The notes below the pieces were generated by a model. The model made no database searches and was not told the origin of the DNA. It saw nothing but the letters and a program-made list of their open reading frames with translations. Below, piece after piece: positions 58,632-64,000 of a stretch of 64,000 nt of DNA. The translations under genes were made by a program, and so were the position numbers. This stretch comes from Photobacterium sp. DA100. GTDB lineage: Bacteria > Pseudomonadota > Gammaproteobacteria > Enterobacterales > Vibrionaceae. The stretch is taken from contig NZ_CP119424.1 in assembly GCF_029223585.1 (NCBI RefSeq), positions 1 through 64,000 of the forward strand. The letters are read 5' to 3'. Position 1 is the first letter of the stretch, and the number at the start of each line of letters is the position of its first letter.

Positions 58632-59603
58632 CTACATCAAGCCGACTTCTTTGTAGTACTTCTCTGCGCCCGGGTGAAGCGGGGCAGAAAGACCGTCTCT
58701 GATCATCTCTTCTTTTTTCAAGTGAGCAAAGGCAGGGTGAAGTCTCTTGAAGTCATCGAAGTTTTCGAATACCGATTTGACGATGCTGTACACCACATCG
58801 TCCGGCACTGACGTTGAAGAAACAAAGGTGGCACCGACTCCAAAGGTAGTGACATCAATCGCATTCCCCTTGTACATACCGCCTGGCACTGTCGCCACAC
58901 GGTAGAAACTGTTGTCCTCGATTAGCTTGTTAACCTTGTCGCCGGCAACGGTAATGATTTTGCTATCGCAAGATGTGGTGGCTTCTTTGATGGCGCCGCT
59001 AGGGTGGCCAACGGTATAAATCATGGCATCAATCTTGTTGTCACACAGTGCTTTGGATTGTTCGGAGGCTTTTAGCTCAGAGGCCAGTTTGAAGTCTTTC
59101 ATTGTCCAGCCGTACCTGTCCATCAGCACTTCCATGGTGCCGCGCTGGCCAGAACCTGGGTTGCCGATATTGACGCGCTTGCCCTTGAGATCTTCGAAGG
59201 TTTTGATCCCCGAGTCAGCACGGGCAACAATGGTAAACGGCTCTGGGTGGATGGAGAACACAGCTCGCAGATCTTTGTATGCCCCGTTATCGGCAAATTT
59301 GCTGGTGCCGTTGTAGGCGTGGTATTGCCAGTCAGACTGGGCGATACCTAAATCAAGCTCGCCAGCACGGATAGTATTGATGTTGTAAATAGAACCACCG
59401 GTACTTTCGACCGAGCAGCGGATATTGTGATCTTTTCTGTCTTTATTGACCAAGCGGCAGATTGCCCCACCCGTTGGGTAATATACTCCTGTCACGCCTC
59501 CGGTACCTATGGTGACAAAACGGCTTTCGGCAAAAGATAGTGCCGAGGTACCCAGTAGAACGGCGGCACTGGTGTAGGCAAGAAGCTTGTTGATAGATCC
59601 CAT
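58632..59603 (-). CDS. TAXI-family TRAP transporter solute-binding protein
   Basis: 323 residues from ATG 59603 (AAGGGAATTTT upstream). The signal peptide [25 protein letters not shown] precedes a TAXI receptor domain: [44 protein letters not shown] and [21 protein letters not shown] proteins feed TRAP permeases with carboxylates or amino acids. No TRAP membrane component is in the window. It is the last gene of the aminotransferase-BKACE-TAXI operon, so the ligand may be the substrate of those enzymes. Confidence 0.9.
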
Positions 59604-59662
59604 AAAATTCCCTTTATGATGAGTGTTATACAAAAAGCAAAGCCAATGTTTACTGCTTCTGG

Positions 59663-60514
59663 CTAGGCAGTGAGGAGCTGGCGAAAATGGTAAGCGTCAA
59701 GGGTCGCCAGGCCAAGTTGCTTGGCGGTTTCGGCAAGGTTAGCCACTTGTTGTGCGTTGCTTGAGGCTAATGTACCTAGATGATTAACATGATTATTTTC
59801 AAAGCCAACTCGAATATCTCCACCCATAATCATAGACGCTGTCAGGCAAAGGTGTTCATATTTTCCGAACGCGCAGACAGCCCAGCGCTTGCCATGGCTG
59901 AACAGACGCTCCTGTAAAAAAGGTGGCAGATCTTTCGGCGAGGCGGTTTGGTGTTTATCGTAGCGACCGAGCACCAGCAGTATGTGGTGGTTGCTTGTTG
60001 GCAGCAGCCCTTGATCAAACAGGGTAAAATAACGCTCGAGATCTCGCGGGCTGTAGAGAATGTACTGGGCGATGATCCCCTGTTCAGCAACATGGTGGAA
60101 AAAGGCGCTCGCCTTATCTAGCTGTGCTGTATCTGGGCCGTATCCGTCGGCGAGCAACTCGCTAAGAGCCAAAGAAGCCGCTTCCGGCCTGACCTCATTG
60201 ATCAAGGCCATTTGTTGGGCTGGGGAATATTGCCCGATGGCTTCGGTGGTCAACTGGACAATAATACTCTCACCAACCCGTGCTTTGAGGCCATGGTATA
60301 GGTGGAGGTTATCTTCGATCTCCAAGGAGTGTTTGCCGCTTTTATCTCTGGCATGGAGGTGCACCATTGCCGCCCCTGCGTCGCGGCAGGCGATAACCTC
60401 GTCAATAATTTCCTGCTGCTCCATTGGTAGGGCAGGGTGATCGGTTTTGGTTTTCCTTGCCCCGTTGGGAGCCACAATAATGGCCGATTGCACGACTGAC
60501 TGTATTGGCTGCAT
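59663..60514 (-). CDS. Beta-keto acid cleavage enzyme (BKACE, DUF849)
   Basis: A 283-residue zinc-dependent TIM-barrel enzyme. BKACEs condense a beta-keto acid with acetyl-CoA to give a CoA ester and acetoacetate; the founder acts on 3-keto-5-aminohexanoate in lysine fermentation. Family marks seen are [36 protein letters not shown] (zinc His pair) and [17 protein letters not shown]. The subgroup substrate cannot be read. AGGAAACAAA precedes the ATG; it lies 44 bases after the aminotransferase, whose keto product may be its substrate. Confidence 0.9.
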
Positions 60515-60558
60515 TTTGTTTCCTTTTTAAGCCTGAGAGTTTCTACAATTCCTAGTTC

Positions 60559-61890
60559 CTAGCTCCATAGAGCCGAAGCTTGCAACAGGGAGGTATGTAG
60601 TTTGCTAACCAGTTCATCCAATTGGTGTTCTTCAATAATGAAAGGCGGTGCCAACAAAATATGGTGGCCGGCTTTACCGTCGATTGTCCCAGCCATGGGG
60701 TAGCACATCAGCCCGTTGTTCATGGCGACTGTTTTAATGGCTTTGTGGGCCTGCGAACAGCTGGGAAGGGGGGCTTTCGACTGTTTGTCTGCGACTAACT
60801 CAATACCAATAAACAACCCCTTCCCACGGATATCGCCGACATAGGGCAGTGGCCCCAGTGTGTCGTTGAGCTTTGACAAAAGTTGCTTACCACGCAGCTT
60901 AACCTTGTCGAGTAGGCTGTCTTCGATAATGGTATCGATAGTTGCCAGGGCCGCTGCACACGCCATCGGGTGACCCATAAAAGTGTGACCATGCTGGAAG
61001 AAGCCAGATCCTGAGGCGATCGCCTGGTAGATATCGTCATGGACAATAGCTGCACCGATAGGCTGGTAGCCTGCGCCAAGCCCTTTGGCGACAGTGACAA
61101 TATCAGGCACGATAACTTCCTGCTCAAAGGCGAAAAAGGTGCCGGTCCGACCGATACCGCACATCACTTCATCAAGGATCAGTAATACATCATAGGTATC
61201 GCAAATCTCCCTGATCCGCTTGAAATAGCCTTCAGTAGCAGGCAGGGCCCCAGCGGTTGCACCGACCACGGGCTCGGCAATGAATGCCATTACGTTGTCG
61301 GCGCCTAGCTCAAGGATCTTTTGCTCTAGCTCATTCGCTACCCTCATGCTGTAGGCCAGCTCTGATTCTCCCGGCTGCTGATCACGGTAGGCATAGCAAG
61401 GGGCGATATGGTGGGCTGCGGAGAGTATCGGCCTGAAAGGTTCGCGCCGCCATTCGTTGCCGCCGACCGAAAGTGCCCCGAGGGTATTGCCGTGATAGCT
61501 CTGGCGCCGGGCGATGAACTGGCTTTTCTGCGGCTTTCCCTTCTCGACAAAGTATTGCCGCGCCATTTTCAGCGCCGCTTCTACCGCTTCGGAGCCGCCG
61601 CTGACAAAGTAAGTGTGTTTCAAAGCATCGGGTGCGAGTTCTGCCAGTCGTTTGGCGAGTTGCTCACTGCTAATGCTGGTGAAAAAACCGGAATGGGCGT
61701 AGGGAATAGCCCCAAGTTGTTGGGCGATTGCGGCTTTTACCCGCTGGTGGTTATGGCCCAAATTAGAGACGGCGGCACCGCCGCAGCCATCGAGGTATAG
61801 CTTTCCGTCGCTGTCGGACAGGTATATTCCATGCCCGCTAACTACTGTGGGAAGCGGGGTATGGCAGTGGCGGTGGAAAACATGGCTCAT
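60559..61890 (-). CDS. Class III (omega) aminotransferase
   Basis: A 443-residue PLP enzyme. YFVSGGSEAVEAALKMARQY, SYHGNTLGALSVGG, ILDEVMCGIGRTGTFFAFE (PLP Asp) and VTVAKGLGAGYQPIGA (Schiff-base Lys) are in order. Class III enzymes of this kind transfer omega-amino groups (beta-alanine, GABA, taurine and similar) to pyruvate or 2-oxoglutarate. The alanine dehydrogenase gene next to it would suit a pyruvate-dependent enzyme that makes alanine, but that gene is truncated here. First gene of an operon with BKACE and the TAXI protein. Confidence 0.88.
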   Translation of the reverse strand: MSHVFHRHCHTPLPTVVSGHGIYLSDSDGKLYLDGCGGAAVSNLGHNHQRVKAAIAQQLGAIPYAHSGFFTSISSEQLAKRLAELAPDALKHTYFVSGGSEAVEAALKMARQYFVEKGKPQKSQFIARRQSYHGNTLGALSVGGNEWRREPFRPILSAAHHIAPCYAYRDQQPGESELAYSMRVANELEQKILELGADNVMAFIAEPVVGATAGALPATEGYFKRIREICDTYDVLLILDEVMCGIGRTGTFFAFEQEVIVPDIVTVAKGLGAGYQPIGAAIVHDDIYQAIASGSGFFQHGHTFMGHPMACAAALATIDTIIEDSLLDKVKLRGKQLLSKLNDTLGPLPYVGDIRGKGLFIGIELVADKQSKAPLPSCSQAHKAIKTVAMNNGLMCYPMAGTIDGKAGHHILLAPPFIIEEHQLDELVSKLHTSLLQASALWS

Positions 61891-61988
61891 TGTTAGATTC
61901 CTTGCATATCAACAGATGTGTTGATTGTTGAGCCAATTCACTTTCGTGGGCAAACGAATAAAAGTGGAGGGGTATGAGAAAAGGGAAT

Positions 61989-62028
61989 AGGCCGGTAAGC
62001 GTTGAGTGACTCGCTACCGGCCTTTTTT
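61989..62028. terminator. Hairpin between the ald remnant and the aminotransferase gene
   Basis: AGGCCGGTAAGCG/CGCTACCGGCCT stem with T6 on the + strand and a weaker T-rich tail on the minus strand, where it would end ald. Confidence 0.6.
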
Positions 62029-62030
62029 GC

Positions 62031-62840
62031 TTACGCTAACTCGAGCGCTTTATCCTGAGCGATGAAAGACAAATCAAGGCTCTTGGCGACACTTTCGTTG
62101 GTCACCTTGCCGTGGATGACATTCAGGCCATTCTTGAGGTGCTGATCGGCCTGCAAGGCCCGCTTGTAGCCAAGGTTGGCCAGGCGCAGAATATAGGGCA
62201 GGGTCGCATTGTTGAGGGCAAAGGCCGAGGTACGGGCGAGGGCGCCTGGCATATTACCGACACAGTAGTGCACCACATCATCAACAATGTAGGTGGGTGC
62301 ATCATGGGTGGTGACCCTTGAGGTGGCAAAACAGCCCCCCTGATCAATTGCCACGTCAACCAAGGCCGAGCCGGGGTGCATTGCCTTTACCATGGCTTCA
62401 CTGACCAGCTTCGGTGCCGCGGCTCCCGGTATAAGTACCCCGCCAATGACCAAATCAGCGCCGACGACGGCATCTTCGAGGTTTTGCTGGTTCGAGTAGA
62501 CCGTTTTCACGCTCGCGCCAAACTGGACGTTGAGCTTGCGCAGGGTATCGATGTTGTTATCCAGAATTGTGGTTTCTGCACCGAGGCCAACCGCCATTTG
62601 AGCAGCATTGGAGCCAACCACGCCGCCGCCAATAATGGTCACTTTGGCCGGAGCGACCCCGGCGACCCCGCCCAGCAGCAGGCCGATCCCACCATGGGAT
62701 TTTTCTAAACAGGCCGCGCCGGCTTGTATCGACATGCGCCCTGCTACCTCAGACATCGGTGCCAGCAAAGGCAGGCTATTGTTAGGCCCGGTCACCGTTT
62801 CATAGGCAATACACACCGCCTCGCTTGCCAGCAGATCCAG
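62031..62840 (-). pseudogene. ald: Alanine dehydrogenase, 5' third missing
   Basis: About 268 residues remain of an enzyme that is normally about 370. The alignment begins at DLLASEAVCIAYETV (near residue 108 of the family) and runs to the natural C-terminus: LLAPMSEVAGRMSIQAGA, VTIIGGGVVGSNAAQMAVGLGA (NAD fold), VDVAIDQGGCFATSRVTTHD and HYCVGNMPGALARTSAFALNNA. The missing part includes substrate-binding Arg and Lys residues (RVG, KVKEP), so activity is unlikely. Upstream the frame meets TGA at 62850-62852, and sequence of another gene begins. A GTG at 62816 could start a fragment, without a clear ribosome site. Confidence 0.88.
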
Positions 62841-63140
62841 GCGGCTTATTCAATGGGCGCAAGTAAATTTCAGGTGCTTTACCATGTGATCATCAAAAGT
62901 GCGATGCCGGAAATTCTGACCGGTTTGCGTATCGGGATCGGTTTCGGTTGGACAACCCTTGTAGCGAGTGAGATGGTCGCAGCCCAAGCCGGGATCGGGT
63001 ATATGGTGCTCAACGCCGCAGAGTTTCTGGTAACGGATGTCGTGATTGCCGGGATCATTATCATCGGCTTGATAGCTTACTCTTTTGATCTTTTTATGCG
63101 CTGGTTAGAGAAGAAACTGGTTCCATGGAAGGGGTATTAA
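62841..63140 (+). pseudogene. ABC-transporter permease (TauC/SsuC type), only the C-terminal third left
   Basis: The frame reads AAYSMGASKFQVLYHVIIKSAMPEILTGLRIGIGFGWTTLVASEMVAA and ends VPWKGY, matching the last 100 or so residues of taurine/sulfonate-type permeases (EAA loop and the last membrane helices). The first 150 or more residues and any start signal are absent; sequence upstream is ald on the opposite strand. With no cognate ATPase or binding protein nearby, it is a remnant. Confidence 0.85.
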
Positions 63141-63482
63141 TCTGTTAGCCCACTTGAGAGCGCCAGCCTTGTACTTGTAGGTGCTCCCAAGGTAGTAAAA
63201 ACGACATCAAAGCATCCCGAAACAGTCATTCTATGCTGCGATGATAAAGAGGCTAAGAACCAGTGCCTGGCTATAGGCACATACTTCTCCCGCTTTTTGC
63301 ACCAAACGAGGCTGTTTTGGCTGGCTCTGAGTACTTCACTATTTTGCGTTATCTTGAGACAGTTGTTTTCCGCTCAAATCATTATGATGGTTTGAGCGGA
63401 TTTTTTATTTGTTGAAGTTATAGCTTGAGGTGAAAAAGGTGGTCATTTTAGCGACTGGCCACCTTCTGTTTAGAGAGTGAAT
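63141..63482. other. Intergenic region with a terminator
   Basis: About 340 bases. Besides the terminator at 63370-63408 I see no gene or repeat. Confidence 0.45.
63370..63408 (+). terminator. Terminator after the permease remnant
   Basis: CCGCTCAAA/TTTGAGCGG stem followed by ATTTTTTATTT; probably the original terminator of the lost transporter operon. Confidence 0.8.
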
Positions 63483-64000
63483 TTAGTTCTGATGCGCAGG
63501 TAGCGACTTGTTCTCGTAGGCATCGGCAAAACCATGGTTCCTGTCTCGGTGGCCCGCTTCGTCTTCGCGGATACGCAGGATGACATCCCTTAACTTGGCA
63601 TTGGCCGCGAGCTGGTAGTATTCAATCGCAATGTCTGGTGCGTTGATGTTCTCAACTTCACCGGCATCGATTTTTTCGAGATATTCGGTGTAGCTTTTGC
63701 AGGCTTCTTCCTCGAAATACCCCACCACACGATGGGCGATCCGTGATGATAGTAAGTAGATGAAACTGTACACCACAATAAAGACACCTTGTCCGAGCAA
63801 GACTAGCATCCGCTCTATCCAGCTTGGCTTAGCGATATCCAGGAAGATCATTAGGTGCATCCGCTCGTTCTGCGCTTCATCAAGCAGCTGTTTGATCCAA
63901 CCTTCGTCATCTCTCATTCGGCGCAGAGACTTAAGGTGGTTGAACATACCTGCAACCATACCCGGTACGGCAGCAATGGTTTCTAAAATGACGGCTCTTT
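63483..64000 (-). CDS. Alternative oxidase (ubiquinol oxidase), 5' end outside the window
   Basis: 172 residues are visible and the frame runs off the right edge. It is a di-iron, membrane-bound ubiquinol oxidase that reduces oxygen without pumping protons. Iron-ligand motifs in order are RAVILETIAAVPGM, DEAQNERMHLM, FEEEACKSY and REDEAGHRDRNHGFAD. A hydrophobic stretch (VLLGQGVFIVVYSFIYLLSS) gives membrane binding. An internal ATG at 63959 lies inside the conserved LET-AVPGM region and is not the start. In vibrios such genes respond to nitric oxide; no regulator is visible here. Confidence 0.92.
   Translation of the reverse strand, partial: RAVILETIAAVPGMVAGMFNHLKSLRRMRDDEGWIKQLLDEAQNERMHLMIFLDIAKPSWIERMLVLLGQGVFIVVYSFIYLLSSRIAHRVVGYFEEEACKSYTEYLEKIDAGEVENINAPDIAIEYYQLAANAKLRDVILRIREDEAGHRDRNHGFADAYENKSLPAHQN

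Follow-up and report, generated by a model that had tools for sequence, protein, structure and literature searches.

Truncated ald and tauC genes joined head to head in Photobacterium sp. DA100: a probable recent deletion within a taurine-type gene cluster

Two kinds of described gene clusters for the use of taurine are closest to the locus analysed here. In the nitrogen-assimilation clusters of Chromohalobacter salexigens and Klebsiella oxytoca TauN1, as they are described in the relevant passages of PMC6616044, TauABC imports taurine, an aminotransferase removes its amino group, and IsfD forms isethionate, which leaves the cell through an exporter. In the dissimilation of taurine, as set out in section 14 of PMC5320631, Tpa/Ald or TauXY act together with Xsc. 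The cluster found intact in three relatives of strain DA100 resembles the former kind in its TauABC importer, aminotransferase, IsfD-like SDR and putative exporter, and the lack of an xsc gene is common to it and the IsfD-type clusters as presented in those passages of PMC6616044. It differs from them in having an additional ald gene and an additional gene for a MocR-type regulator, and in strain DA100 it is reduced to two gene ends. Moreover, the IsfD-type aminotransferase uses 2-oxoglutarate according to the same passages, whereas the adjoining ald suggests that the Photobacterium enzyme would use pyruvate as the amino acceptor. Our literature search for taurine use with xsc or tauABC in Photobacterium found no report, and a search on Vibrionaceae, taurine and isethionate gave nothing on the topic, as judged by titles.

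The window, i.e. the whole stretch of DNA analysed, is the first 64 kb of the smaller contig (C2, 2.14 Mb) of the 6.01-Mb genome of strain DA100, which is assembled in two contigs and 99.98% complete. It was compared with 51 other Photobacterium genomes (52 in all), among them P. rosenbergii (G034; locus L004, NZ_PYMB01000020) and P. pectinilyticum (G028; locus L005, NZ_JANEYT010000046), which belong to the same genus, and a two-contig genome (G012) that is the sister of strain DA100 in the edd, LacI, TAXI and C69 trees and shows 93–95% identity to it in four sampled 20-kb segments elsewhere. For positions 1–25655 of the window, no match longer than 300 bp was seen in about 119 kb of syntenic G012 sequence except a 540-bp piece of 73% identity; this part may be specific to strain DA100 or located elsewhere in G012.

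Two gene ends and the intact cluster of relatives

The preliminary description reported an ald gene on the minus strand and a TauC-type permease gene on the plus strand, head to head and both truncated at the 5' side, and this is what is present there, both genes being full length in relatives (Table 1). The ald remnant is the 3' 72% of the gene and aligns to residues ~104/106–373 of 373. It reaches 359.5 bits with the TIGR00518 model (cut-off 391.85; profile positions 107–369 of 370), the intact ald of P. rosenbergii scores 510.8 bits, and a full ald of 373 amino acids is present in G012, P. rosenbergii and P. pectinilyticum. The tauC remnant is the 3' third of its gene (residues ~228–331 of 331); among the NCBIfam models TauC fits it best, at profile positions 175–272 of 275 and with a score below the cut-off, and over 99 amino acids 97–100% of its residues are identical to those of the intact TauC in the same three genomes. 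Each remnant is open up to its own stop codon.

Table 1. Features around the join and the separate xsc locus (window coordinates unless stated)
Feature	Position	Strand	Remark
TAXI-family TRAP solute-binding protein, left flank	58632–59633	-	
Beta-keto acid cleavage enzyme (BKACE) family, left flank	59663–60514	-	
Class III aminotransferase, left flank	60559–61890	-	passes the PRK07483 model; not the tpa-like enzyme
Sharp drop of identity to G012, ~99% to ~86%	61950–62050		probable recombination boundary, ~0.85 kb left of the junction
ald remnant	62031–62837	-	C-terminal ~268 of 373 residues; start and most of the N-terminal domain absent
138-aa reading frame over the join	62724–63140	+	antisense ald plus TauC tail; chance frame
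Probable deletion junction	62830–62837		AGCAGATC, could come from either parent gene
tauC remnant	62838–63140	+	C-terminal ~100 of 331 residues; taurine-type ABC permease
Post-tauC spacer	63141–63480		aligned in part to the same spacer in G012, G034 and G024
Alternative oxidase (AOX), right flank	63483–64000, continues beyond the window	-	collinear with G012 and G034
xsc locus	L125:1–19501 = C2:1184500–1204000 of strain DA100		TRAP transporter, FAD oxidoreductase, Xsc, Pta, TauE

Stop-free frames extend slightly beyond the join on both strands. The 138-aa ORF among them has no sign of being a gene and was rejected as one. All 120 listed of its 243 protein-database matches are PF00528 permeases with 68–83% coverage, except P0017 (97%); the best-scoring match is 72% identical and the highest identity among the matches listed is 76%, so this search is uninformative as to whether the truncation recurs in other strains.

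The intact cluster occurs in three of the 51 other genomes, i.e. G012, P. rosenbergii and P. pectinilyticum, with ald and the genes for an IsfD-like SDR, a TauE-family permease and a MocR-type regulator on one strand, and the gene for a tpa-like class III aminotransferase, tauA, tauB and tauC divergent from them. The same three genomes have a close full-length TauC (86–100% identity) and a close full-length ald (91–100%). The best TauC match in any remaining genome of the genus has E = 2.3e-29 and 33% identity; the next best ald has 72%, and any ald match at all is found in 50 of the 52 genomes. In a scan for TauC relatives, from which the best 80 of 509 confirmed loci were taken, the loci of P. 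rosenbergii and P. pectinilyticum are the top two among these 80. The missing length is 7785 bp compared with G012, 7781 bp with P. rosenbergii and 7851 bp with P. pectinilyticum. The flanks in G012 are collinear with the window on the left and on the right, and those in P. rosenbergii likewise on the stretches compared. Thus, a single deletion (7785 bp by comparison with G012) accounts for the join. The preliminary description had already proposed one deletion between an ancestrally divergent ald and a taurine-type ABC operon, and the three relatives, intact in the expected order and orientation with 7781–7851 bp more, together with the collinear flanks, bear this out. Its account of the lost DNA, namely the ABC operon and part of ald, is correct but incomplete, because the block also held the genes for the tpa-like aminotransferase, the IsfD-like reductase, the TauE-family permease and the MocR-type regulator.

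The lost DNA was searched for in the remainder of the genome. With the whole P. rosenbergii locus as DNA query, strain DA100 gives matches in the two remnants, in the spacer after tauC and in AOX. Otherwise, two ald paralogues (65 and 67% DNA identity), both located on the other contig, and 100 bp of the aminotransferase gene next to the scar were matched; the deleted interior gave no further match in the 6.01 Mb. Single-protein searches covered TauC, the tpa-like protein and TauA, and found no close copy (best 36% for the tpa-like protein, best 29% over part of the length for TauA, and 26% for another TauC-like protein among the matches listed), and the SDR, the TauE-family protein, the MocR-type regulator and TauB were covered by the DNA search. 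An inversion or translocation that joined the two 3' ends was therefore rejected as practically negligible: head-to-head 3' fragments could also stand at an inversion breakpoint, but the order and orientation of the flanks are those of G012 (and of P. rosenbergii on the stretches compared), and the missing halves turned up nowhere else in the searches of the genome. It is also very unlikely that the block is still in the cell and was dropped from the assembly by a misjoin or collapse. The little decay of the remnants would fit such an artefact; it is opposed by the two-contig assembly with its high completeness, by a break inside coding sequence with only 4–8 bp in common, by flanks collinear with the sister genome, and by the lack of a close copy of the searched lost genes elsewhere in the assembly. 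Hence, the gene loss is very probably real.

The decay itself was estimated from private changes. In both remnants together strain DA100 has 21 synonymous and 3 non-synonymous ones, and the same stretches of the intact genes have 19 and 0 in G012, 37 and 2 in P. rosenbergii, and 69 and 14 in P. pectinilyticum. For the constraint estimate G012 and P. rosenbergii were used, P. pectinilyticum with its longest branch being left out. The LacI counts of P. rosenbergii (512 non-synonymous), most likely distorted by a stop codon in the translated stretch, were left out as well. Had its private branch been unconstrained throughout, strain DA100 should carry about 64 non-synonymous changes; at most 0.115 of that branch may have been unconstrained (95% upper bound), and the remnants do not deviate significantly from the intact genes (p = 0.15). 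The remnants are thus little decayed, which means that the loss is recent when set against the divergence of the species, or else an artefact, which would look identical. The deletion may also have arisen in culture, with which the lack of decay likewise fits.

Junction sequence and origin of the join

Short-homology (illegitimate) deletions occur in bacterial chromosomes; their breakpoints share a few bases, of which one copy is retained. The scar probably resembles them in both respects, and nothing distinctive was seen. In the alignment with the relatives, ald at the junction reads AGCAGGTC in G012 and P. rosenbergii and AGTAGATC in P. pectinilyticum, and tauC reads AGCAAATT in G012, AGCAAATC in P. 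rosenbergii and AGCAGATC in P. pectinilyticum; AGCA is common to ald and tauC in both G012 and P. rosenbergii, the two nearest relatives. The junction homology is possibly up to 8 bp (AGCAGATC); its exact length depends on the true parent, and the relatives used as stand-ins give 4–8 bp. By a simple formula, the chance of at least 4 bp shared at the junction is ~0.016 and that of at least 8 bp ~1e-4. From 62838 onward the sequence is that of tauC alone. As to the preliminary description, which placed the join at 62838–62841, the truncation of both genes stands and the exact position does not, the aligned relatives giving the ambiguous stretch 62830–62837. Its candidate microhomology, CAG at 62838–62840, has to be given up, because the ald of G012, P. 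rosenbergii and P. pectinilyticum reads TTC there and the shared stretch is AGCAGATC, directly to the left.

We assume, at a probability of nearly nine in ten, that the scar is one recent deletion of ~7.8 kb, in which illegitimate recombination between short matching sequences joined ald and tauC. The ancestor would have had leftward ald, IsfD-like SDR, TauE-family permease and MocR-type regulator genes, and rightward genes for the tpa-like aminotransferase, tauA, tauB and tauC, and illegitimate recombination at AGCAGATC (4 to 8 bp) within ald and within tauC would have removed the intervening DNA.

It is possible, though rather doubtful, that recombination with another Photobacterium lineage formed or imported the scar, in that a foreign ald entered by homologous crossover near 61.98 kb, and the deletion either came with it or arose when it was joined to the resident tauC through the short match. 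The assumption above and this one overlap, as the latter concerns how the deletion arose and not whether it did. It would explain why the identity to G012, which is ~99% over 38–62 kb with a few kilobases lower, breaks at ~61.98 kb to ~86%; the one long BLAST match to G012 in this segment has 94%, a mean of the 99% and the 86% parts. It would also agree with a shift in the informative sites: the left flank (58632–61890), at 97% identity to G012, firmly puts strain DA100 with it (sites 163/19/7), whereas the ald remnant places strain DA100 outside G012 and P. rosenbergii (quartet sites 14/15/28, bootstrap 81). A Fisher test of the site patterns of the left block against those of ald gives 3.6e-18, a value to be read with the mutual dependence of sites in the same gene in mind. 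Furthermore, right of the scar, the AOX tree places strain DA100 with P. rosenbergii; the LacI and edd trees place it with G012, and the gntK site patterns (9/6/11) favour neither grouping and give no support for the pair with G012. Against such an import, the identity to G012 is mostly 84–93% per kb over the whole of 62–82 kb (with a 78% stretch at 63.3–64.2 kb), so that the shift is not specific to ald. In addition, the tauC tail does not discriminate between the groupings, the difference between its site patterns and those of ald reaching p = 0.08 only; the AU test for the species topology in the ald remnant is marginal (p = 0.047), and a search of the 52 genomes, with five candidates scored per genome, gave no nearer relative of this remnant. 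Taken together, the drop of identity and the conflicting trees and site patterns place the locus in or beside a recombined stretch. The conflict between the ald-remnant phylogeny and the left flank may reflect a contribution of recombination, and since the remnant does not group with the ald of G012, its history is not simply vertical descent plus deletion. We consider it unlikely that both processes were one, i.e. homology-facilitated illegitimate recombination, in which ald DNA of another species would have paired near 61.98 kb and its other end would have been joined to the resident tauC via 4–8 bp, with 7.8 kb deleted in the same event. If so, it would be a natural case of interspecies DNA uptake causing the loss of a metabolic cluster.

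Predicted function of the lost module and the retained route

The TauA of P. rosenbergii scores 349.6 bits, above the curated cut-off of 304.25, and for its TauB and TauC the taurine models are the best match with scores below the cut-off. The tpa-like class III aminotransferase of the intact cluster reaches 475 bits with its best model (cut-off 488), and there is no taurine-specific model among the 25 shown. For the SDR, the structure 6ixj (sulfoacetaldehyde reductase) gives 298 bits, second to 2nwq (uncharacterised dehydrogenase, 303 bits), and the best NCBIfam model is YdfG with a score below the cut-off. The TauE-family permease is a PF01925 (TauE/SafE) membrane protein (64 bits against 32.6) and a putative exporter. 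The regulator passes the NCBIfam PdxR model (364 against 320 bits), which names a regulator of pyridoxine biosynthesis. With the published consensus CTGGACYTAA, no TauR operator site was found in the mocR–tpa spacer of L004 or L118 at up to 2 mismatches, or in the xsc stretch L125 at up to 1 mismatch. Because of the PdxR match and the lack of the operator in the mocR–tpa spacer, we keep the regulator as MocR-type with a putative role. The lost module would import taurine, pass its amino group to pyruvate and release ammonia through Ald, and sulfoacetaldehyde would be reduced to isethionate and then exported. Against this reading stand the scores below the equivalog cut-offs for the aminotransferase, the SDR, TauB and TauC, the PdxR match of the regulator and the lack of a TauR operator in the mocR–tpa spacer. 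The neighbouring omega-aminotransferase, which the preliminary description took for the partner in the taurine route, is 36% identical to the tpa-like protein, and the tpa-like gene lay inside the deleted block.

Strain DA100 retains two further ald genes (70 and 66% protein identity) as well as an xsc gene at C2:1194319–1196154, which scores 1084 bits against a cut-off of 676 with a model that is over the cut-off in none of 14 control genomes. In the stretch around it there are genes for a TRAP transporter, a DAO-family FAD oxidoreductase, a 138-aa ORF, a YeiH-family protein, phosphate acetyltransferase and a TauE-family permease. By this combination of xsc with the TRAP transporter, FAD oxidoreductase, YeiH-family, TauE-family and Pta genes, the locus resembles the dissimilatory route as given in section 14 of PMC5320631, and it differs from the TauXY route of that section in that the FAD enzyme matches no TauXY subunit by any model used. 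It lies ~1.13 Mb from the scar on the same contig and stands apart from it. A TauD-family protein was not found in the genome (in the control it was found in 1 of 14 genomes, E. coli). Since these ald genes and the xsc locus are kept, probably one taurine route was lost and not all. Accordingly, the loss of an uptake and nitrogen-release route, as put forward in the preliminary description, is probable, but its extent is narrower than implied there. For taurine-type sulfonates the cell would now depend on the separate TRAP/FAD-oxidoreductase/Xsc locus.

Xsc at 94–100% identity is present in 7 of the 52 genomes (strain DA100, G034, G036, G008, G045, G014 and G031). P. rosenbergii has both routes, including the interior of the xsc locus, G012 and P. 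pectinilyticum have the ABC cluster only, and strain DA100 has xsc only. In G012 the flanks of the xsc locus are matched, and the interior was not found between them, where other ORFs lie (40 of 55 candidates scored). For these few genomes the likeliest course would be that the ancestor had both routes and that the sisters lost different ones.

Other losses at the locus and significance

In the genome G024 (L155:14787–15310), only the 3' end of BKACE, the aminotransferase–ald spacer, the post-tauC spacer and AOX are seen at the same locus; the aminotransferase, ald and the tau cluster are absent, and no close tauC or ald was found elsewhere in this genome. G024 is the sister of P. pectinilyticum in the edd (708 bases only), LacI and TAXI trees (support 1.0). 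Its condition is most simply an independent loss, and it may also be an ancestral absence of the ald–tau part. Outside the genus, the cluster of Vibrio sp. 10N.286.49.B3 (L016:5709–9300) is without the aminotransferase, tauA and TauE-family genes, and full-length tauB and tauC ORFs adjoin its MocR gene; a close aminotransferase was not found in this genome (best 32% identity). The absence of the TauE-family gene is not special to this locus, as a close one was also not seen in L006, L007, L012 and L013.

The loss in strain DA100 is mostly ordinary in kind, though cleanly documented. There is a lesson in it, in that a neighbouring aminotransferase was mistaken for the pathway partner when the likelier partner had been deleted. 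For the marine genus Photobacterium, it is a precisely delimited and fresh loss of an apparent taurine-nitrogen module. Moreover, related species appear to hold different taurine routes, the cluster without a close xsc in G012, xsc without the cluster in strain DA100 and both in P. rosenbergii, which offers a comparison for the nitrogen versus carbon roles of taurine.
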